64,000 nt of DNA from a candidate division WOR-3 bacterium (GTDB lineage: Bacteria > Hydrothermota > Tepidihabitantia > SM23-42): the NCBI GenBank assembly GCA_029858255.1, contig JAOUFJ010000001.1, forward strand, positions 1 through 64,000, given 5' to 3'. Below are positions 3,375 through 28,421 of this stretch, piece after piece. The first letter of the stretch is position 1, and the number at the start of each line of letters is the position of its first letter. The position numbers and the translations under genes were made by a program. Below the pieces are notes generated by a model. It saw nothing but the letters and a program-made list of their open reading frames with translations. It was not told the DNA's origin and ran no database searches.

Positions 3375-3871
3375 GAGATCTGGTTGGCCCCACAGATTTG
3401 GTAAGACATGCCACGCTTGAGGATATAGCAGCGTTGATCGATCTTTACAGAGAGTTTCATGAATTCCATGTTAAAGGCGTTCCGGACCGTTTGCAGCGTC
3501 CTAACGAATATGATACTGACGATTTGCGGTCGAAGTTGGTAGATATAATAGAAGCCGAAGACTCAAACATCTTCGTTGCGGAATTGGATGGTCAGGTTAT
3601 TGGTCTTGCCGAGGTGTATATGAAAGAAGATGAGTCGAATCCCTATAGAGTTTCCTACAAATATACACATCTGCAGAGTATTATGGTGAGCGAGAAATGC
3701 AGAAGAAAGGAGATCGGTAGACGACTCCTGCGGGCAGTTGAACAGTGGTCAAAGGAGAAGGATGCTACGGAAGTAAGATTAAATATCTGGGAATTTGACA
3801 ACGGACCGCTGAGGTTCTACGAAAAAGAGGGCTACCGTACGCTTAGACGCACGATGGTACGGAAGCTTTGA
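3371..3871 (+). CDS. GNAT-family N-acetyltransferase
   Basis: 166 residues starting at the ATG that overlaps the previous stop (ATGA). The GNAT fold is clear: an N-terminal beta-alpha segment (VRHATLEDIAALIDLYREF), a central strand FVAELDGQVIGLAEVY, the acetyl-CoA loop in CRRKEIGRRLLRAVEQW (the R/Q-x-x-G-x-G/A motif in the variant form RKEIGR), and a C-terminal NGPLRFYEKEGY motif. Substrate unknown. Translational coupling places it in the same transcript as the Fpg-like gene. Confidence 0.88.
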   Translation: MRDLVGPTDLVRHATLEDIAALIDLYREFHEFHVKGVPDRLQRPNEYDTDDLRSKLVDIIEAEDSNIFVAELDGQVIGLAEVYMKEDESNPYRVSYKYTHLQSIMVSEKCRRKEIGRRLLRAVEQWSKEKDATEVRLNIWEFDNGPLRFYEKEGYRTLRRTMVRKL

Positions 3872-3904
3872 TCGGTATGGATCGCTGAAATTAAAGGAGG
3901 TCAT

Positions 3905-4504
3905 ATGGCCAAGACAAAAAACCTTAAGGAGATTCTAATTTTGCTGCGGAAATACAGCCAGTTGATCGTCGATCTCGGCTATGCAGCGGTGCTGGAGGAC
4001 AATCTTGAACTGGCCCAGGAAGCTTTCAGGGTGAAGACAGAGATTAAGGAACTGGATTATCAATTGAGGAAGGAAGCGTTGATGGTCGCGCGCTTATCAA
4101 GGTCGGCAAAGGAAGATATCCCGCAGATCGCCAACATACTGCAGATCGGGGTTGCGATAAAGGAAATATCAGATGGGATCGATGACTTGATCGAGATCGC
4201 GGTCAGAAACGTAGGTGTTCATCCGATAATCAGGATTGCATATTCGAGGAAGGATATCAGGATAACAAGACACGTTGTTGGTGAGGCATCCAAACTTGAC
4301 GGAAAGAAGCTTGATGACATCAAAATGGATCCGGATGCTGGATTCAGGGTGATCGCAGTACGGCGCGAGAACGAGTGGACGCTTGACCCTCCAGGAGGTA
4401 AGAAGCTGCTGAATGGCGATATTGTGATAGTTGAAGGAAGAGACGTTGCCGCACGAAAGATGCAGGATTATGTCAAAGGCACGAAGAAGGAAACGAATAA
4501 ATAG
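3905..4504 (+). CDS. PhoU-like/TrkA-C (RCK_C) domain regulator
   Basis: 199 residues. The first half (about 1-105) is helical with the look of a PhoU-type domain. The second half (about 110-190) is an RCK_C/TrkA-C domain, seen in DIRITRHVVGEASKLDGKKL and the closing GDIVIVEGRD strand. TrkA-C domains usually bind small ligands and gate ion transporters. The start has AAAGGAGG closely upstream. The C-terminus overlaps the start of the MgtE-like transporter by 35 bases, so the two are translated together; the likely job is ligand-dependent control of that transporter. This pairing is known in archaea and some bacteria. Confidence 0.82.
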   Translation: MAKTKNLKEILILLRKYSQLIVDLGYAAVLEDNLELAQEAFRVKTEIKELDYQLRKEALMVARLSRSAKEDIPQIANILQIGVAIKEISDGIDDLIEIAVRNVGVHPIIRIAYSRKDIRITRHVVGEASKLDGKKLDDIKMDPDAGFRVIAVRRENEWTLDPPGGKKLLNGDIVIVEGRDVAARKMQDYVKGTKKETNK

Positions 4505-5675
4505 AAGAATAGTTACCGATATCCTTCTGCAGGCGACGCCGGTAGTCATTCTGACATCGGTTGGTGAGCTCTTTGCCGGCTCGATACTGGGTAAGATGCA
4601 CGAGCGTTTGGATCTTATCCCCGGGCTGATAATTCTCGTGCCCGCAGTAATGGGACTCAGAGGTAATATCGGCACGGCCCTTGGCTCGAGAATATCAACG
4701 TCTCTACATCTGGGCCTTGTGGGCAGGAGATTTTCCTTTAGCAGATTCAACTTGAGTAACATCGGCGCCGGGTTTTCACTTTCGCTGACGGTTTCAATTA
4801 TTATCGGGCTTTTCGCCCGATTCGTCTGTCACATCTTCGGACTTCCGAGTATCCCGTTGGTGAATTTACTGCTGATCGCAATCCTCGCGTCGGCGATGGC
4901 TTCACTCGTGCTCATACCATTTACGGTAACGCTCACCTATTTTGCATTCAACAGGCGCCTGGATCCAGATAATATAGTGGCACCGATCATCGGTATGGTT
5001 GGTGATATCATAACCGTGGCCGTGGTATTCATCGCCGCCGATATAGTTTTACGACTCAAGATTGACGAAGCATGGAGCCTGTTGTTTTTGCCGGTCGTGC
5101 CAATGATCATCAGACGAATGCCCTCTCGATACAAACTCCTGAATATCCTTAAACAGAGTATCCCGATTCTGTTCGTGTGTACAATGTTGGGTGTTCTGGC
5201 CGGGATATATCTACATTGGCAATACGAGAAATTCTATCTTGTCCCCGGACTTCTCATTCTGGTGCCGCAGATCATTGCGAAAGCCGGCAGTATCGGCGGT
5301 ATCTTCGGCGCACGGTTTTCGTCCGGGTTGCATCTCGGCTACCTAAGGCCCTACCGGGTGAATGACTATGTGATAAAAAACTTCATCGGAGCGATTGCTT
5401 TAGCACTCGTGATCTCTCCCCTGGTGACAGTGATAACTAAGTTCGGGGCAGACCTTTTCAGGATACCGATTGTACCGATCATTCCACTCTTCTTCATTAA
5501 CCTTTTTGCCATTTTGACAATAACTCTGATCGTATTTCTTCTCGATTTCGTGACTGCCTCGCTGTCTTATAAGATCAGGATTGACCCGTCAAATTCGGTC
5601 ATACCATTTGTGACGAGTCTGGGTGACATCATAGGTACGGTCATTCTTGTGTTGGCGATAAGTATGTTTCTGTGA
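4470..5675 (+). CDS. MgtE/SLC41-type divalent cation transporter with two MgtE membrane domains
   Basis: 401 residues with about ten membrane segments in two homologous halves. The first half carries PGLIILVPAVMGLRGNIGTALGSRIS and the second PGLLILVPQIIAKAGSIGGIFGARFS; each also ends with the DPDN/DPSN-x-(I/V)-(A/I)-P motif of the MgtE pore. Canonical bacterial MgtE has one such domain plus cytosolic N and CBS domains, which are absent here; the tandem form is the SLC41 arrangement. Mg2+ or another divalent ion is the likely substrate. Regulation is probably through the overlapping PhoU/TrkA-C gene. ATG 4470 is preferred: it gives a short basic N-terminus and has AGGA just upstream. Confidence 0.87.
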   Translation: MSKARRRKRINRRIVTDILLQATPVVILTSVGELFAGSILGKMHERLDLIPGLIILVPAVMGLRGNIGTALGSRISTSLHLGLVGRRFSFSRFNLSNIGAGFSLSLTVSIIIGLFARFVCHIFGLPSIPLVNLLLIAILASAMASLVLIPFTVTLTYFAFNRRLDPDNIVAPIIGMVGDIITVAVVFIAADIVLRLKIDEAWSLLFLPVVPMIIRRMPSRYKLLNILKQSIPILFVCTMLGVLAGIYLHWQYEKFYLVPGLLILVPQIIAKAGSIGGIFGARFSSGLHLGYLRPYRVNDYVIKNFIGAIALALVISPLVTVITKFGADLFRIPIVPIIPLFFINLFAILTITLIVFLLDFVTASLSYKIRIDPSNSVIPFVTSLGDIIGTVILVLAISMFL

Positions 5676-5692
5676 GCAGTTTGATTTTGTCG

Positions 5693-6034
5693 TTACGACT
5701 TTATCATCACGAGTAGCATCTTGAACTTCTGGACCGCCTTGAGCGCGTGCGGTTCGTTTGCCGGCATGATTATCATTTCCCCGGCTTTCAGTGAATGTTC
5801 AGTGCCAGATATCGTTATTACTCCATGGCCGTCGATTATGTAGACAAGCGCATCAAAAGGCGCAGTGTGTTCGCTCAATCCCTGGCCGCGGTCGAAGGCG
5901 AAAACGGTTACGGTGCCGGTTTTTTTGTTGATCACCTCACTGCTCACAATGGCGTACTTCTGATAATCAATGATGCTCTGCAGATCGATTGCCTGTGACA
6001 GCAGATGTTTGGTTTTGTTAATATTATGATTCAT
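5693..6034 (-). CDS. Small cupin-domain protein
   Basis: 113 residues forming one cupin barrel. The metal motif region is partly preserved (LSEHTAPFDALVYIIDGHG) and the second motif ends IIMPANEPHALKA. Proteins of this type are often redox- or metal-linked stress proteins in anaerobes; the ligand is not known. It is expressed from its own consensus promoter at 6099-6126. Its 3' end faces the MgtE transporter with only 17 bases between the stops. Confidence 0.85.
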   Translation of the reverse strand: MNHNINKTKHLLSQAIDLQSIIDYQKYAIVSSEVINKKTGTVTVFAFDRGQGLSEHTAPFDALVYIIDGHGVITISGTEHSLKAGEMIIMPANEPHALKAVQKFKMLLVMIKS

Positions 6035-6098
6035 TTATCTCCTTCAGTACTATCTCATCGTGATGTATTATTGAAATAGATTCTTATATTACTGCTTC

Positions 6099-6126
6099 AT
6101 TATAGTTATACATGTTTGAGTGTCAA
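6099..6126 (-). promoter_or_regulatory. Consensus sigma70 promoter of the small cupin gene
   Basis: Minus strand: TTGACA (6126-6121), 16-base spacer, TATAAT (6104-6099); both boxes match consensus perfectly. The -35 box overlaps the last codons of the phosphoesterase gene. The predicted leader is about 58 bases. Confidence 0.8.
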
Positions 6127-6869
6127 TCTACGGATGCTTTGCCCGTTCTGAGCCAAGATGCCCAGTCAAGCCGTCCGTTTTCCGCGGCCATGACAGCAGC
6201 CGCTTCCCAATCGTATTCCAACATAACCTGCTGAGCACTCCACTCTCCGTTATCTTCACTGACTATAGAGTAGCGCGCATGTGGTGAACCAGCCTGCATC
6301 ACGTGGAGATATGGGTTGTCATCCCTGAAGGCAGGTAATCCAGCGCTCCCCGGGTTGACAACGAGTATGTCTTTTTGCAGGTTGACCGACTGTGGGACAT
6401 GATCGTGCCCGCATAGTATCACCGGGCACCCTATGTTCTTAGCCATCCGGCACATGTCCTCCCTGCTTCTTGATACAGCACCGTCGCTACAGACATCCCA
6501 GAAAAAATAGCATGTATCCGATTGAGGCGTGGCATGGCAGGCGAACAGATCGTCATCGACAATTCGTGTTGCCGGGATTTCACGCAGCCATTCGATATGC
6601 TTTGGTTCGAGATTTCTCCGGACATGACACAGGGTAGGCGATGGTTCAGCATCGCCGGGGGTCAATATTAGTTTATCTTCATTGCCGAAAACGGAAAGAA
6701 TGTCTCTTTGCATGAGCATTTCAGCAGTGCTTACAGGCTCGAGTGGGCCGTAAAGAGAATCCCCGAGGTTGATGATCCGCTCGATGCCGTGACTCTTGAT
6801 GTCCTTGAGAACCGAAGCGAGTGCCAAGCTGTTTCCGTGTATATCAGAAATTATGGCATATCTTCTCAT
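6123..6869 (-). CDS. Metallophosphoesterase, MJ0936/YfcE-like
   Basis: 248 residues with all signature motifs of the calcineurin-like family in order: SDIHGN at the N-terminus, GDSLYGP, GNED, then CGHDHVP, and the MJ0936/YfcE-type NPGSAGLP. These motifs bind two metal ions and hydrolyse phosphodiesters or phosphomonoesters. The roughly 80-residue C-terminal extension is somewhat longer than in YfcE. Cytoplasmic, substrate unknown. The start ATG lacks a strong Shine-Dalgarno. Confidence 0.88.
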   Translation of the reverse strand: MRRYAIISDIHGNSLALASVLKDIKSHGIERIINLGDSLYGPLEPVSTAEMLMQRDILSVFGNEDKLILTPGDAEPSPTLCHVRRNLEPKHIEWLREIPATRIVDDDLFACHATPQSDTCYFFWDVCSDGAVSRSREDMCRMAKNIGCPVILCGHDHVPQSVNLQKDILVVNPGSAGLPAFRDDNPYLHVMQAGSPHARYSIVSEDNGEWSAQQVMLEYDWEAAAVMAAENGRLDWASWLRTGKASVD

Positions 6870-12963: not shown

Positions 12964-13524
12964 GTGGAGAACAAACACATAAGAATCAGCAAATTCCTGA
13001 GCCTTGTGCTCAGACACAAGCCCGAGACAATTGGGCTGGAATTGGATAGTGAGGGATGGGGTGATGTGGGGGAATTGATAAGAAAATCCTTTGATGCCGG
13101 TGTTGTGCTCGACAGGCCGATCCTGCGGCAAGTTGTAGACGGCGGGGAGAAAAAGAGATTCAGCTTCAATTCTGATGGTTCAAAAATCCGCGCAAATTAC
13201 GGACACTCAATACCTGTGTTGCCGGTTCATGAACCCGTCGAGCCACCGGAATTTCTCTATCACGGCACGGCGAAGGAGTATGTCGGGTCAATTGACAGCG
13301 AAGGGATCGGTCCGGGAGCGAGGCAGTACGTTCATCTTGTTGAGGATATGAAGACGGCTATACAGGTAGGAAGCAGGCACGGAGAACCGGTAGTGATCAT
13401 TGTCAAGGCAAAATCGATGCATGAAAGTGGATATGAATTCTTCAAAACCGAAAGCGGTATCTGGTTGACAAAAGAAGTGCCGAAGGAGTATATTGAAATA
13501 GAAGGCTCAAAAAAGCTGAAATGA
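12964..13524 (+). CDS. kptA: RNA 2'-phosphotransferase (Tpt1/KptA family)
   Basis: 186 residues, the normal bacterial length. The N-terminal winged-helix lobe opens ISKFLSLVLRHKPETIGLELDSEGW, a family signature with the first catalytic Arg-His. The C-terminal ADP-ribosyltransferase-like lobe has LYHGTA and a RQYVHLVED segment. KptA transfers an internal RNA 2'-phosphate to NAD+, giving ADP-ribose 1'',2''-cyclic phosphate. In fungi this finishes tRNA splicing; in bacteria the natural substrate is unknown. The start is a GTG with AGGG eleven bases upstream. Confidence 0.93.
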   Translation: MENKHIRISKFLSLVLRHKPETIGLELDSEGWGDVGELIRKSFDAGVVLDRPILRQVVDGGEKKRFSFNSDGSKIRANYGHSIPVLPVHEPVEPPEFLYHGTAKEYVGSIDSEGIGPGARQYVHLVEDMKTAIQVGSRHGEPVVIIVKAKSMHESGYEFFKTESGIWLTKEVPKEYIEIEGSKKLK

Positions 13525-18085: not shown

Positions 18086-19573
18086 ATGTCAAATAATGAT
18101 GATTTGATCAATCCCAGACCGGTCCTGAGATTCCTTAGCGACGCTACGATCGAAAGGATCATCTCTGAAGCTCGTGATGTTCTATGCAAATTAGGTATCG
18201 AGATTCATAATCAGGTTATCCTTTCCATGTTGCAGGAGCACGGCGCAAAGGTCGATAAGAGCGCAAATCACGTGTTTCTTACCGACGGTGTCATCGATAC
18301 TGCGCTGAAGACGACACCCGGTTCGTTCAAACTCTATGATGTCCTGGGTAATGAGACGCATGATATGTCCGGATACAACGTGTATTTCACACCGGGTTCG
18401 GCAGCATTGAACTTGCTTGACGGGAAAACGCAGAAGATAAGGAAGCCGGTGACTGAAGACTATGTGAATTATGCCAAATTGATGAGCCTGCTGGGTAATA
18501 TTGCATCGCAATCGACCGCATTCATTCCTGCCGACGTTCATGAATTGATTTCTGATAGCTACCGTCTCTATCTCAGTCTAGTGTATTGCGAGAAGCCGGT
18601 CGTGACGGGTGCATTCACGATCGATGCGTTCAATGTGATGAGGGACCTCCAGATTACGGTACGAGGTAGCGCCGAAGAACTGGCTGCTAAACCACTCACT
18701 GTCTTTTCATGTTGTCCGACATCGCCCCTGAAATGGAGTGATGTGACATCTCAGAATGTTGTAGATTGCGCCCGGTCATCGATACCGGTGGAATTCATTT
18801 CAATGCCTTTATCCGGGTTCATGGCACCGGTGACGCTCATCGGGACGCTGGTACAGCATACCGCGGAGACGCTCAGCGGAATTGTGATCAGTCAACTCAC
18901 GAATCCTGGTGTACCAGTACTTTATGGCGGTTCGCCCGCAGTATTCGACGTCCGTTACGAGACGACACCGATGGGTGCCATCAGTACCCAGATGATCGAT
19001 TGTGCCTATAATGAGATCGGTAAGTACCTGGGGATTCCGACCCAGGCTTACATATCATTGAGCGATGCTAAGCAGCTGGATGCACAGGCCGGACTCGAAT
19101 CCTCGATGGGTGCGACACTGGCCGCGCTCGCCGGCATTAACAGCATATCGGGTCCGGGTATGCTCGATTTCGAGAGCTGCCAGAGTCTGGAGAAGCTGGT
19201 GCTCGATAATGAGATCTGTGGAATGACACTCCGTCTGATCAAAGGCATTCAACCAAAGGAGGATTTTCCTGCCCTGCCCAGGTTCGAGGAATTGCTCAGA
19301 GAAAAGCATTTGCTCATCTCGGAACATACACAGAAATATCTCAGGGAGGAGATATGCCTGCCCGGTAGAGTGATCGATCGGGCTAATCGAACGCGATGGC
19401 AGGAAGAGGGTAGTTTGACTTTACTGGAACGCGCGCGACGTGAAGTCGATGAATTGCTCAACAAATATGAACCTTCGCGTCTTCCTGAGAACGTGAAGAA
19501 AGAATTGACTGACATAATGTTAAATGAAGCACGACGCTACGGTATGGAAAACTTGCCCGAGATCATCATATGA
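18086..19573 (+). CDS. MttB-family (non-pyrrolysine) amine:corrinoid methyltransferase
   Basis: 495 residues, the usual MttB length. Family features include the opening RPVLRFLSDATIERI, the glycine-rich GSAALNLLDGK segment, and the FSCCPTSPLKWSD and SGPGMLDFESCQSLEKLVLDNEICGM blocks (split here by other residues). Archaeal MttB carries pyrrolysine at an in-frame TAG; here the frame is uninterrupted, so this belongs to the non-Pyl branch. Characterised members demethylate glycine betaine (MtgB), proline betaine (MtpB) or carnitine (MtcB) and pass the methyl to a corrinoid protein. Substrate cannot be told from sequence. First gene of a four-gene operon. Confidence 0.93.
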   Translation: MSNNDDLINPRPVLRFLSDATIERIISEARDVLCKLGIEIHNQVILSMLQEHGAKVDKSANHVFLTDGVIDTALKTTPGSFKLYDVLGNETHDMSGYNVYFTPGSAALNLLDGKTQKIRKPVTEDYVNYAKLMSLLGNIASQSTAFIPADVHELISDSYRLYLSLVYCEKPVVTGAFTIDAFNVMRDLQITVRGSAEELAAKPLTVFSCCPTSPLKWSDVTSQNVVDCARSSIPVEFISMPLSGFMAPVTLIGTLVQHTAETLSGIVISQLTNPGVPVLYGGSPAVFDVRYETTPMGAISTQMIDCAYNEIGKYLGIPTQAYISLSDAKQLDAQAGLESSMGATLAALAGINSISGPGMLDFESCQSLEKLVLDNEICGMTLRLIKGIQPKEDFPALPRFEELLREKHLLISEHTQKYLREEICLPGRVIDRANRTRWQEEGSLTLLERARREVDELLNKYEPSRLPENVKKELTDIMLNEARRYGMENLPEIII

Positions 19574-20340
19574 GGGATGTGATCGAAATCAGAAAGCAGG
19601 AAATAATCCCAAGCCAGGAAGATGCATTTGCGCTGCAGGGGATTTCCTCGGGTAGCAAAGTATCTTCTAATATCATCTTGCTCTTTGACCAGGCGGTAAA
19701 GATTTTTGCAGAGCATGCACAACCGGTTGGAATAATTGCGGAGATAAGCAAGAATGATTTTGGAATTATTTATGCAGGAGAAGGACGTAACGAGACCGAT
19801 ACGCCCGTTGCCGAAATTTTCCAGAAAGCAGATCGCCTTGCCCTATTTGCCACAACCGTGGGCCAGGGTCTGCATGATAAGATCAACGAACTTTTCGTCA
19901 ACAAGGACTTTGCACTGGGCAGCATGCTGGACTCGGTCGCATCGGCCGGTGTCGAAAAGGCGGCAGACGTGCTTGAGGCGTTTTTTGGTAGTACCGTGAC
20001 GCGTGGAATCGAAGATGACAAAAATATTGCGGTAATGCGCTACAGTCCGGGATATTGCGGCTGGCATGTCAGCGGTCAGCGGAAGTTGTTTGAATATCTG
20101 AAGCCCGAAGAAATAGGCATAACCCTGCGAGCCAGCTATCTCATGGAACCTCTTAAATCTGCTTCTGGAGTATTTATTGCCGGCGGGGTTGATATACACT
20201 TCTTTGCAGATACTTATTCCTTCTGCAGTCAATGCGAGACCCATTCGTGCCGTGAGAGGATGTACAGAATCGAACATTCAATCAATGCTTCAGAACCCGG
20301 CGAGCAACCTGCATCAATTGATAAACGTCGAAAGGAGTGA
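19570..20340 (+). CDS. Methionine synthase activation domain-like protein
   Basis: 256 residues, overlapping the MttB stop as ATGA. The central motif RYSPGYCGWHVSGQRKLF matches the AdoMet-binding RxxPGY signature of the MetH activation domain, and the C-terminus has a cysteine cluster CSQCETHSC. In MetH that domain binds SAM and flavodoxin and reductively remethylates inactive cob(II)alamin. A stand-alone version next to a corrinoid protein is likely its reactivator; the cysteine cluster could bind a metal or Fe-S centre that supplies electrons. Confidence 0.82.
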   Translation: MRDVIEIRKQEIIPSQEDAFALQGISSGSKVSSNIILLFDQAVKIFAEHAQPVGIIAEISKNDFGIIYAGEGRNETDTPVAEIFQKADRLALFATTVGQGLHDKINELFVNKDFALGSMLDSVASAGVEKAADVLEAFFGSTVTRGIEDDKNIAVMRYSPGYCGWHVSGQRKLFEYLKPEEIGITLRASYLMEPLKSASGVFIAGGVDIHFFADTYSFCSQCETHSCRERMYRIEHSINASEPGEQPASIDKRRKE

Positions 20341-20341
20341 G

Positions 20342-20980
20342 ATGGATATCTTAAGGCAAATTGCGCTGGTGCTTCAGCGTGGCGACAGCAGTGGGATCAA
20401 TGAACTCCTGCAGCAGGCTTTAGACAACAAACTTGGGCCAAGAGAGATACTGGATGATGGTTTGATTGCAGGTATGAACGTTGTCGGGGACAGATACAAA
20501 AAGCATGAGATCTTTTTGCCTGAGGTGTTGCTTGCGGCCAAGGCGATGCACGTGGGCATGGACAAATTGAAACCACTTTTTCTTAAAGATGAAGTGCCGT
20601 CTCGCGGGCGCGTGGTTATCGGTACGGTGCAGGGTGATATCCATGACATCGGGAAGAATCTTGTTGCGATAATGTTGTCCGGCGCCGGTTTTGAGGTTAT
20701 CGATCTGGGTAAGGATGTGCCACCGAAGAAGTTTATCGAGACCGCAGTTGAGCAAAATGCCAAGGTCATCGGCATGTCCGCCCTCCTTACGACAACCATG
20801 CCCGTAATGAAAAAGGTGATCGGGGAGCTAAAGGAAAAAGGGCTCAGCGGAAGGATCAAGACGGTCATCGGAGGTGCTCCGGTTTCAGAGGAATTCGCCG
20901 ACCATATCGGCGCTGATGGTTACGGGTACGACAGCGTGCAAGCGGTGGACTGCATAAAGAGACTCATTTCCGCATCCTGA
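20342..20980 (+). CDS. Corrinoid (B12-binding) protein, MtbC/MttC-like
   Basis: 212 residues. Residues 1-85 are the helical cap domain, including LDDGLIAGMNVVGDRYKKHEIFLPEVLLAA. Residues about 90-212 are the Rossmann-like B12 domain with GDIHDIGKNL, where His101 is the lower axial cobalt ligand, plus SALLTTTMP and the GGAPVS loop. It shuttles the methyl group between the MttB-like enzyme and the homocysteine methyltransferase. AAAGGAG precedes the ATG, which follows the previous stop by one base. Confidence 0.95.
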   Translation: MDILRQIALVLQRGDSSGINELLQQALDNKLGPREILDDGLIAGMNVVGDRYKKHEIFLPEVLLAAKAMHVGMDKLKPLFLKDEVPSRGRVVIGTVQGDIHDIGKNLVAIMLSGAGFEVIDLGKDVPPKKFIETAVEQNAKVIGMSALLTTTMPVMKKVIGELKEKGLSGRIKTVIGGAPVSEEFADHIGADGYGYDSVQAVDCIKRLISAS

Positions 20981-20981
20981 G

Positions 20982-21872
20982 ATGAGGCAATTTCACGATC
21001 GCCTGGCTGCCGGTGAAGTGTTGGTCGCTGACGGTGCCATGGGTACGATGCTGATGGAACGCGGGCTTAAGGCAGGAAACCCTCCCGAATCATTCAACAT
21101 GGAGCGCCCCGATGCGCTTGAGGAAGTTGCGCGAGAATATCTGGATGCTGGTGCCGACATAATACAGACAAACACCTTCGGCGCCTCGCGTCTCAAACTA
21201 GCACAGTATTCTTTGGGCGACATGGTCGATCAGATAAATAACATTGCGGTCCTAGCAGTCAGGAGAGTTGTGGAAAGACATGCTTACATCTCGGGTTCCT
21301 GCGGACCTACCGGCCAGTTTCTCAAACCGTATGGCGATGTTGAACCGGCCCAGATGCTCGATGTGTTCAGGGAACAGATAGGTGCACTTGTCAGCGCCGG
21401 TGTCGATTTGATTTGCATCGAGACCATGAGTGACCTGCGGGAGGCGACGTGTGCCGTGAAGGCGGCAAAAGAATTCAGCTCAATTCCCGTGATGGCGACG
21501 ATGACCTTCGATCATACACCCAAAGGTTTCTACACTATTATGGGCGTAACGATTGAAGAAGCAGTGAAAGGGCTCGAAGCCGCAGGTGCTGACATTGTAG
21601 GTTCGAATTGCGGCAATGGCATTGAGAACATGGTGCTGATTGCCCGGGAATTCAGAAAACTCACTGAGCTCCCGGTTCTCATCCAGTCAAACGCCGGTAT
21701 CCCTGAATTGATAGGTGACACGGCAGTCTATCCGGAGACTCCGGATTTCATGGCGGAAAAGGTGGAGGATCTATTGAGAGCCGGCGTAAATATCATTGGC
21801 GGCTGTTGTGGGACAACGCCGGAGCACATTAGGGCGATCAGAAAGGTCGTCGATGCATACAAACATTCATAG
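20982..21872 (+). CDS. Homocysteine S-methyltransferase (MetH Hcy-domain-like)
   Basis: 296 residues, a TIM barrel matching the first domain of MetH: LVADGAMGTMLMERGL at the start, ADIIQTNTFGASRLKL, and the zinc site made by the Cys in GSNCGNGIENM and the pair in GGCCGTTPEHI. The enzyme transfers a methyl group to zinc-activated homocysteine to make methionine; here the donor should be the corrinoid protein encoded one base upstream. No pterin-binding domain follows, so folate is not the obvious methyl source. Confidence 0.93.
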   Translation: MRQFHDRLAAGEVLVADGAMGTMLMERGLKAGNPPESFNMERPDALEEVAREYLDAGADIIQTNTFGASRLKLAQYSLGDMVDQINNIAVLAVRRVVERHAYISGSCGPTGQFLKPYGDVEPAQMLDVFREQIGALVSAGVDLICIETMSDLREATCAVKAAKEFSSIPVMATMTFDHTPKGFYTIMGVTIEEAVKGLEAAGADIVGSNCGNGIENMVLIAREFRKLTELPVLIQSNAGIPELIGDTAVYPETPDFMAEKVEDLLRAGVNIIGGCCGTTPEHIRAIRKVVDAYKHS

Positions 21873-27320: not shown

Positions 27321-28421
27321 ATGAAATGGTTATCATTGGCTACGATGCTTGCGCTGTTTTTCGTAAGCGTTTGTAAGAGTGAGGGGGCGGACAAGGACAA
27401 AGGGAGTAGTGTGATGAAAAATAATGACAAATATGAAAAGGCAACATTTGCAGGCGGTTGTTTCTGGTGCATGGAACCGCCATTTGAGAATTTGGAGGGC
27501 GTGATCGATGTTGTGCCGGGATACTCTGGCGGGCAAACAGAAAACCCGACCTACGAGCAGGTTTCAAGAGGCAGTACAGATCATCTCGAAGCAGTCCAGA
27601 TAACTTATGACCCGTCGAAGATCAGCTATCAAAAATTAGTTGACGTCTTCTGGACGCAGATCGACCCCACAGACCAGGGTGGTCAGTTTGTTGACCGCGG
27701 GTCTCAGTACAAGACGGCGATCTTCTATCACGATGATGAACAGAAGAGGACAGCTGAGGAATCGAGAGCCAAGCTGGAGAAATCGGGTAGATACAGTAAA
27801 CCAATAATCACCGAGATACGAAAGTATGTAGTATTCTACGAAGCAGAGGATTATCATAAAGATTTCTACAAGAAGAGCCCTGCACGCTACAAGACTTACA
27901 AATTCGGCTCCGGCCGCGAGCAGTACCTGAAAGAGATCTGGGGTGAAGATAGGAAAGTTGAGCCGGCTGAAAAAGAAAAGACACATGAGAAACCATCCCA
28001 GGAGGAAATTCGTGAAAATTTGACTCCCATGCAGTACGAGGTGACGCAGCAATGCGGGACCGAGCCGCCATTCAAAAACGAGTATTGGAATAATAAACGC
28101 GAAGGCATCTACGTTGATGTTGTATCGGGTGAACCGCTTTTTAGTTCAAATGATAAGTACGATTCTGGTACAGGTTGGCCGAGTTTCTTCAGGCCGATCG
28201 AAAAGGACAATATTGTCGAAAAAACCGATTCCAGCCACGGCATGGTTCGCACTGAGGTACGCAGTAAGACGGGCGATTCGCACCTTGGTCACTTGTTCGA
28301 TGATGGCCCGGCACCGACCGGCCTCCGGTACTGTATTAATTCAGCTTCTCTGCGTTTCATTCCCAGAGAAGACCTCGACAAAGAAGGATACAGCGAGTAT
28401 AAGAAACTATTTGAAGACTAA
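27321..28421 (+). CDS. msrAB: Bifunctional methionine sulfoxide reductase MsrAB, exported
   Basis: 366 residues. Residues 1-22 look like an export signal. MsrA spans about 38-195, with catalytic Cys47 in GCFWCME, then VVPGYSGG and the [12 protein letters not shown] block. MsrB spans about 230-360, with GWPSFFRP, a [13 protein letters not shown] segment and catalytic Cys338 in RYCINS. MsrB zinc cysteines appear absent. The two halves reduce the S and R forms of methionine sulfoxide in exported proteins; the reductant may be a TlpA-type thioredoxin. Shine-Dalgarno AGGAGG precedes the ATG, and a hairpin terminator follows. Confidence 0.95.

Follow-up and report, generated by a model that had tools for sequence, protein, structure and literature searches.

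The four genes listed in Table 1, found within the window (the whole 64,000-nucleotide stretch analysed here), probably encode a four-part, folate-independent and cobalamin-dependent methionine synthase that acts as a homocysteine remethylase. In the cycle we posit, the MttB homologue would demethylate a small methylated compound and load the methyl group onto the Co(I) of the corrinoid protein. The homocysteine methyltransferase would then transfer this group from methyl-Co(III) to homocysteine, which would derive in large part from S-adenosylhomocysteine. The protein resembling the MetH activation domain would return corrinoid inactivated as Co(II) to service, by AdoMet-dependent reductive methylation or by a metal or iron-sulfur route. 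We infer these reactions, their direction and the donor from the content and coupling of the genes, their conservation, the intact ligands for metal and cobalt, the assigned folds and the absence of alternative genes. If true, this would be another folate-free way to methionine, and an orphan branch of the MttB superfamily would gain a role in central metabolism rather than in methylotrophy. Many uncultured bacteria that lack both a recognisable methionine synthase and MTHFR would be scored as methionine auxotrophs, and the operon represents a specific, testable candidate replacement for methionine synthase in about a dozen phyla.

Table 1. Genes of the proposed methionine synthase operon and the basis of their assignment
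Feature	Position in window	Strand	Length and basis
MttB-superfamily corrinoid methyltransferase without pyrrolysine, proposed methyl-donor module	18086..19573	+	495 aa; PF06253, fold
Stand-alone MetH activation-domain protein, proposed corrinoid reactivase	19570..20340	+	256 aa; PF02965, fold
Corrinoid protein, helical cap and Rossmann domain, His101	20342..20980	+	212 aa; PF02607, PF02310
Homocysteine S-methyltransferase, proposed acceptor module	20982..21872	+	296 aa; PF02574

The preliminary description had identified four coupled genes of these types, all of which were found with their motifs intact. The first two ORFs overlap by 4 nt, while 1-nt gaps separate the second from the third and the third from the fourth. 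Pfam matches are MTTB (1.7e-73 across 472 residues, full-length, indicating membership of the MttB superfamily, COG5598/PF06253), Met_synt_B12 (3.4e-9, above the family cut-off), the B12-binding domain and its cap (1.4e-29/1e-21), and S-methyl_trans (2e-73, full-length). Together with NCBIfam assignments and gene content, these bear out the earlier view that the operon resembles a methionine synthase split into separate genes, in which an MttB homologue takes the place of MetH's folate module.

Scanning a single genome for each species recovered 80 loci with MttB proteins 67–89% identical, in bins deposited as WOR-3/Stahlbacteria, Zixibacteria, Aminicenantes, Fermentibacteria, Aegiribacteria, Eisenbacteria, Cloacimonadota, Phycisphaerae, Acidobacteria, Gemmatimonadota, Bacteroidetes and Myxococcota. 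All four genes occur on one strand in 41 of the 56 loci with at least 3 kb of downstream sequence; gene order is that of the window in 40, and the 41 span about a dozen phyla (WOR-3, Zixibacteria, Aminicenantes, Fermentibacteria/Aegiribacteria, Eisenbacteria, Phycisphaerales, Gemmatimonadota, Acidobacteria, Bacteroidetes and others), and three further loci lack only the activator. Among the relatives, successive genes are separated by a median of -1, 23 and 4 nt. When the distance matrices of the four proteins are compared in pairs, r is 0.62–0.81, a level reached in 0 of 999 permutations. The recurrence of gene set and order across phyla indicates that the operon did not arise by chance, and the four-gene set is a real unit. 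A divergent cousin in the same phylum (L089; identities of 51% for MttB, 43% for the homocysteine methyltransferase, 43% for the corrinoid protein and 32% for the activator) retains all four types in the order corrinoid protein, homocysteine methyltransferase, activator, MttB; content kept despite such reordering is good evidence of functional linkage. Counting against our interpretation, eight MttB relatives, mostly from Acidobacteria/Terriglobia, lack the other three genes nearby. No conserved neighbours beyond the four genes that might hint at the substrate are common past close kin.

The window belongs to a 2.72-Mb MAG that is 96.6% complete and congeneric with WOR-3 bins. Searches of this host genome for metH, metE and MtgA/MtqA, proposed earlier as a check, favoured the earlier reading: they recovered no Met_synt_B12 protein besides the operon's activator, no PF01717 protein and hence neither MetE nor core-MetE, no MTHFR (PF02219; not even a candidate on first look) and no pterin methyltransferase of the MtgA, MtqA or MtgD type. 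The absence of a pterin-binding gene near the operon, remarked on before, extends to the whole genome: the only PF00809 gene is FolP, located beside a diadenylate-cyclase-like gene, both being named from sequence and full-length domain match, and we therefore reject a folate module encoded elsewhere in the host. Closed sister chromosomes (CP070802, CP070686) agree with the host on MTHFR, PF01717 and pterin genes. A single MttB-family member is present. With no MetH, MetE or core-MetE, the only other methionine synthase candidate left in the host is a second, divergent PF02574 protein (L083 5516-6430), which counts against regarding the operon as the sole synthase; the operon is nonetheless the only recognisable complete methionine synthase in the genome. 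That second protein, gaps in MAGs, which are incomplete, and flavin-independent MTHFRs, which escape a PF02219 search (PMC7857596), could each weaken the sole-synthase statement, and methionine auxotrophy with salvage is possible. Given the missing MetH, MetE and MTHFR, FolP as sole pterin gene, the single MttB and a supply of homocysteine through SahH, the best reading is that methyl groups would flow from MttB through the corrinoid protein to homocysteine, bypassing folate.

Among the 51 genomes reached through these loci, 19 lack MTHFR, and 14 lack both MTHFR and PF01717 while their pterin domains above cut-off are only FolP-like or a short fragment. Several genomes, however, hold the operon together with a full MetH, which counts against our interpretation. 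Further genomes of the host's genus have a 778-aa MetH (homocysteine, pterin and B12 domains without the activation domain) beside a 278-aa MTHFR; there, the activator encoded in the operon might act on this MetH as well as on the operon's own corrinoid protein. Across the phylum, MTHFR occurs at least as often in genomes with the operon-type MttB (12/22) as in others (45/111). This lack of anticorrelation shows that folate loss does not go hand in hand with the operon, and we reject a general replacement of MTHFR across the phylum; the operon is not everywhere a simple substitute for the folate route.

The activator is proposed to be a corrinoid reactivase. A profile search with it returned Thermotoga TM0269 (1J6R) at 7e-10, followed by weak matches to MetH activation domains, and its predicted structure (pLDDT 92) gave the same picture, with 1J6R as the best Foldseek match (E 6e-12) followed by the E. 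coli and human MetH activation domains (4e-8 against the MetH reactivation domain). The Arg that precedes P-G-Y in the MetH activation domain and binds AdoMet (R1134 of E. coli) is present in the window protein as Arg157 and replaced in many relatives, which retain G161-Y162. The clade also conserves a GYCGW motif, the cysteine C163 and the C-terminal cysteines C219-x2-C222-x4-C227. In the corrinoid protein, the cobalt-ligand motif D99-x-H101-D102-x-G104 is invariant (at least 97% in 55 sequences), and the protein is nearer the methylamine/betaine type (TIGR02370, 209 bits) than MetH (151 bits).

The MttB homologue scores 363.6 bits against the trimethylamine methyltransferase family TIGR02369, under its cut-off of 525, no in-frame TAG was found, and the position equivalent to Pyl334 of M. 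barkeri MttB is occupied by Leu325, which together exclude a pyrrolysine-type trimethylamine MttB. The two proteins have in common a Cys-Pro-Thr-Ser-Pro-Leu stretch and Met240, shared by M. barkeri MttB and the operon clade. Docking has proposed Y94, N199, R309, H345 and F353 of MtgB as contacts for glycine betaine (PMC6855144); the operon clade has S105 (80/80), C210 (79/80), Q320 (80/80), S355 (77/80) and E363 (80/80) at these positions, which does not support placing it among MtgB-type glycine betaine methyltransferases. The distant S. meliloti homologue 4YYC retains the Y, N, R and H; the far cousins L088 and L089 have S, C and E at pocket positions, as in the operon clade. Replacement of these residues, and Leu325 at the pyrrolysine site, indicate a predicted pocket that is neither MtgB's nor, pyrrolysine being absent, MttB's. 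C228, C365 and C378 belong to the same clade-invariant set, and the conserved cysteines with E363 could suggest a metal site.

What this pocket accepts bears on several readings of the operon. As a special case of the methionine synthase we favour, an imported quaternary amine (glycine betaine, carnitine, proline betaine, choline phosphate or similar) could be converted directly to methionine, which we regard as a serious possibility somewhat short of an even chance. Among non-pyrrolysine MttB members, those whose physiological substrate is known use quaternary amines (PMC12155760), and the predicted fold of the subunit is close to both MttB (7XCL, TM 0.90) and MtgB (2QNE, TM 0.87). The betaine-type donor of the preliminary description nevertheless finds no support, given the replacement of all five proposed MtgB contacts and the absence of the betaine/choline-binding protein OpuAC from 19 of 21 carriers, in a transporter search confined to the OpuAC type. 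Among candidate donors we would therefore rank a quaternary or otherwise activated methyl compound first and an internal carrier second. Somewhat doubtful, and offered tentatively, is the broader proposal of a widespread, undescribed methionine synthase family whose MttB-type subunit has a new pocket and draws methyl groups from something other than methyl-folate or a known betaine, allowing MTHFR-independent methionine synthesis in many uncultured phyla.

We consider it rather unlikely that the MttB-fold subunit is fed by a one-carbon carrier of the cell itself (methyl-folate from a reductase that escaped recognition, or a novel carrier), which would make the operon a true MetH replacement rather than a scavenging system. 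In many genomes the operon is the sole candidate methionine synthase, with one MttB copy per genome, an unusual invariant pocket and few betaine transport proteins, and MttB is the best conserved of the four proteins (mean identity 70% versus 43–62%). However, MetH folate domains fall far behind in the fold search (TM about 0.3 versus 0.9 for MttB and MtgB), the host lacks MTHFR, and no MttB member is known to use folate. A catabolic or detoxifying demethylase, with homocysteine merely a convenient sink, would resemble most described MttB-family systems (PMC12155760), but the single MttB gene per genome, the lack of THF-linked disposal genes in the host and the lack of linked transporter or oxidation genes make it improbable.

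The proposal that homocysteine is the acceptor gains support from the homocysteine methyltransferase. Since the PF02574 family is broad and motifs alone do not give the acceptor, another thiol is conceivable; we consider this very improbable given the full-length homocysteine methyltransferase match, the complete Zn motif (C210, C275 and C276, invariant at the level of at least 97% in 46 sequences), best NCBIfam scores of 284 bits for PRK08645 and 237 bits for PRK07534, and the presence of SahH in 21 of 21 carriers tested. In the host, SahH lies directly beside metK, suggesting that homocysteine is available within the AdoMet cycle. Strong transsulfuration-family proteins are missing in some carriers (G011, G016, G040, G045), where the operon would thus remethylate homocysteine and not make methionine de novo. 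As candidates for making homocysteine de novo, the host has two strong PF01053 proteins. Their best scores are to methionine gamma-lyase and to OAH/OAS sulfhydrylase, neither of which reaches the cut-off, and their neighbourhood resembles propionyl-CoA metabolism.

MetH carries homocysteine, pterin, B12 and activation domains on one chain. The operon's homocysteine, B12 and activation modules match these one to one, but they are separate genes, no pterin domain is found in any of the four, the folate module gives way to an MttB homologue and the corrinoid protein is of the methylamine/betaine type, so that the operon is not a MetH. With the MtgB, MtcB, MtpB and MthB systems it shares an MttB-type donor enzyme and cognate corrinoid protein; these systems methylate THF through MtgA, MtqA or MthA or, in methanogens, CoM, and the acetogen systems are activated by RamQ, whereas the host genome lacks their THF-methyltransferase module. 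The activation domain is also separate in Thermotoga maritima TM0268, described as MetH (PMC7857596), and TM0269, the closest structure to the activator, although the operon differs in having an MttB homologue and no pterin domain. Core-MetE and MesA-D are likewise folate-independent (PMC7857596, PMC7005905) but are PF01717 proteins of another family.

Among described systems, Ruegeria pomeroyi MtgBCDE and the three-part methionine synthase of Phaeobacter inhibens come closest; there too, MttB-family, corrinoid and homocysteine modules are on separate proteins in the absence of MetH (PMC12478193, PMC5764234). In R. pomeroyi, work that builds on the split methionine synthase of Phaeobacter (PMC5764234) found that neither the synthesis of methionine nor the demethylation of betaine proceeds without MtgC, and that the same holds for MtgD (PMC12478193); the two processes share the corrinoid protein. 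An MttB-type enzyme that shares its corrinoid protein with a homocysteine module is hence not wholly without precedent, though MtgBCDE includes a pterin subunit. The operon matches modules B, C and E, whereas D, essential in MtgBCDE, where MetF is also present, has no counterpart in the host genome, and the operon is not an MtgBCDE dual system. Reactivation differs as well, relying in P. inhibens on RamA-like and DUF1638 proteins with no PF02965, and the scattered MtgBCDE genes contrast with the compact, single operon described here, of which our literature search found no published description. Upstream of the operon lie genes for a SAM methyltransferase and a YjbQ protein, an arrangement common to its nearest kin only.

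The genome of the sister species G004 encodes both a MetH and the operon with its stand-alone activator; this MetH comprises the Hcy, pterin and B12 domains and lacks the activation domain. The activator encoded in the window shares with its relatives the MetH-activation fold, a conserved Cys-x2-Cys-x4-Cys at the C-terminus and a conserved Cys163, which together suggest a metal or Fe-S site; in MetH activation domains no such site is expected.

Members of the same MttB clade, 69–72% identical, are encoded at L056, L063, L064, L068, L076, L078 (Acidobacteria/Terriglobia), L045 and L049, loci from our scan of one genome per species, and corrinoid, homocysteine methyltransferase and activator genes are absent near MttB at all eight. 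Several of these genomes carry a fused homocysteine methyltransferase/MTHFR of ~640 aa.

The host encodes a second, divergent PF02574 (homocysteine S-methyltransferase family) protein that could be an alternative homocysteine methyltransferase, and second, weaker matches to this family likewise occur among WOR-3 sisters. The host also encodes a pair of neighbouring PF01053 proteins. The first of them is closest to methionine gamma-lyase, and the neighbourhood appears to be concerned with propionyl-CoA metabolism; the host may therefore also degrade methionine. A further methionine-related gene, an apparent methionine sulfoxide reductase fusion, lies ~5 kb downstream of the operon. The window also encodes a protein resembling RNA 2'-phosphotransferase, named from its sequence.

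Coordinates of the features discussed
Feature	Location	Position	Remark
KptA/Tpt1-like protein	window	12964-13524	
Activator	window	19570-20340	
Putative MsrA-MsrB fusion	window	27321-28421	
MetH and MTHFR genes	L092 (G004)	3506-6659	overlapping; MetH 777 aa
PF01053 pair	L093 (host contig C8)	6943-9551	side by side
Second PF02574 protein	L083 (host contig C50)	5516-6430	best NCBIfam 68 bits
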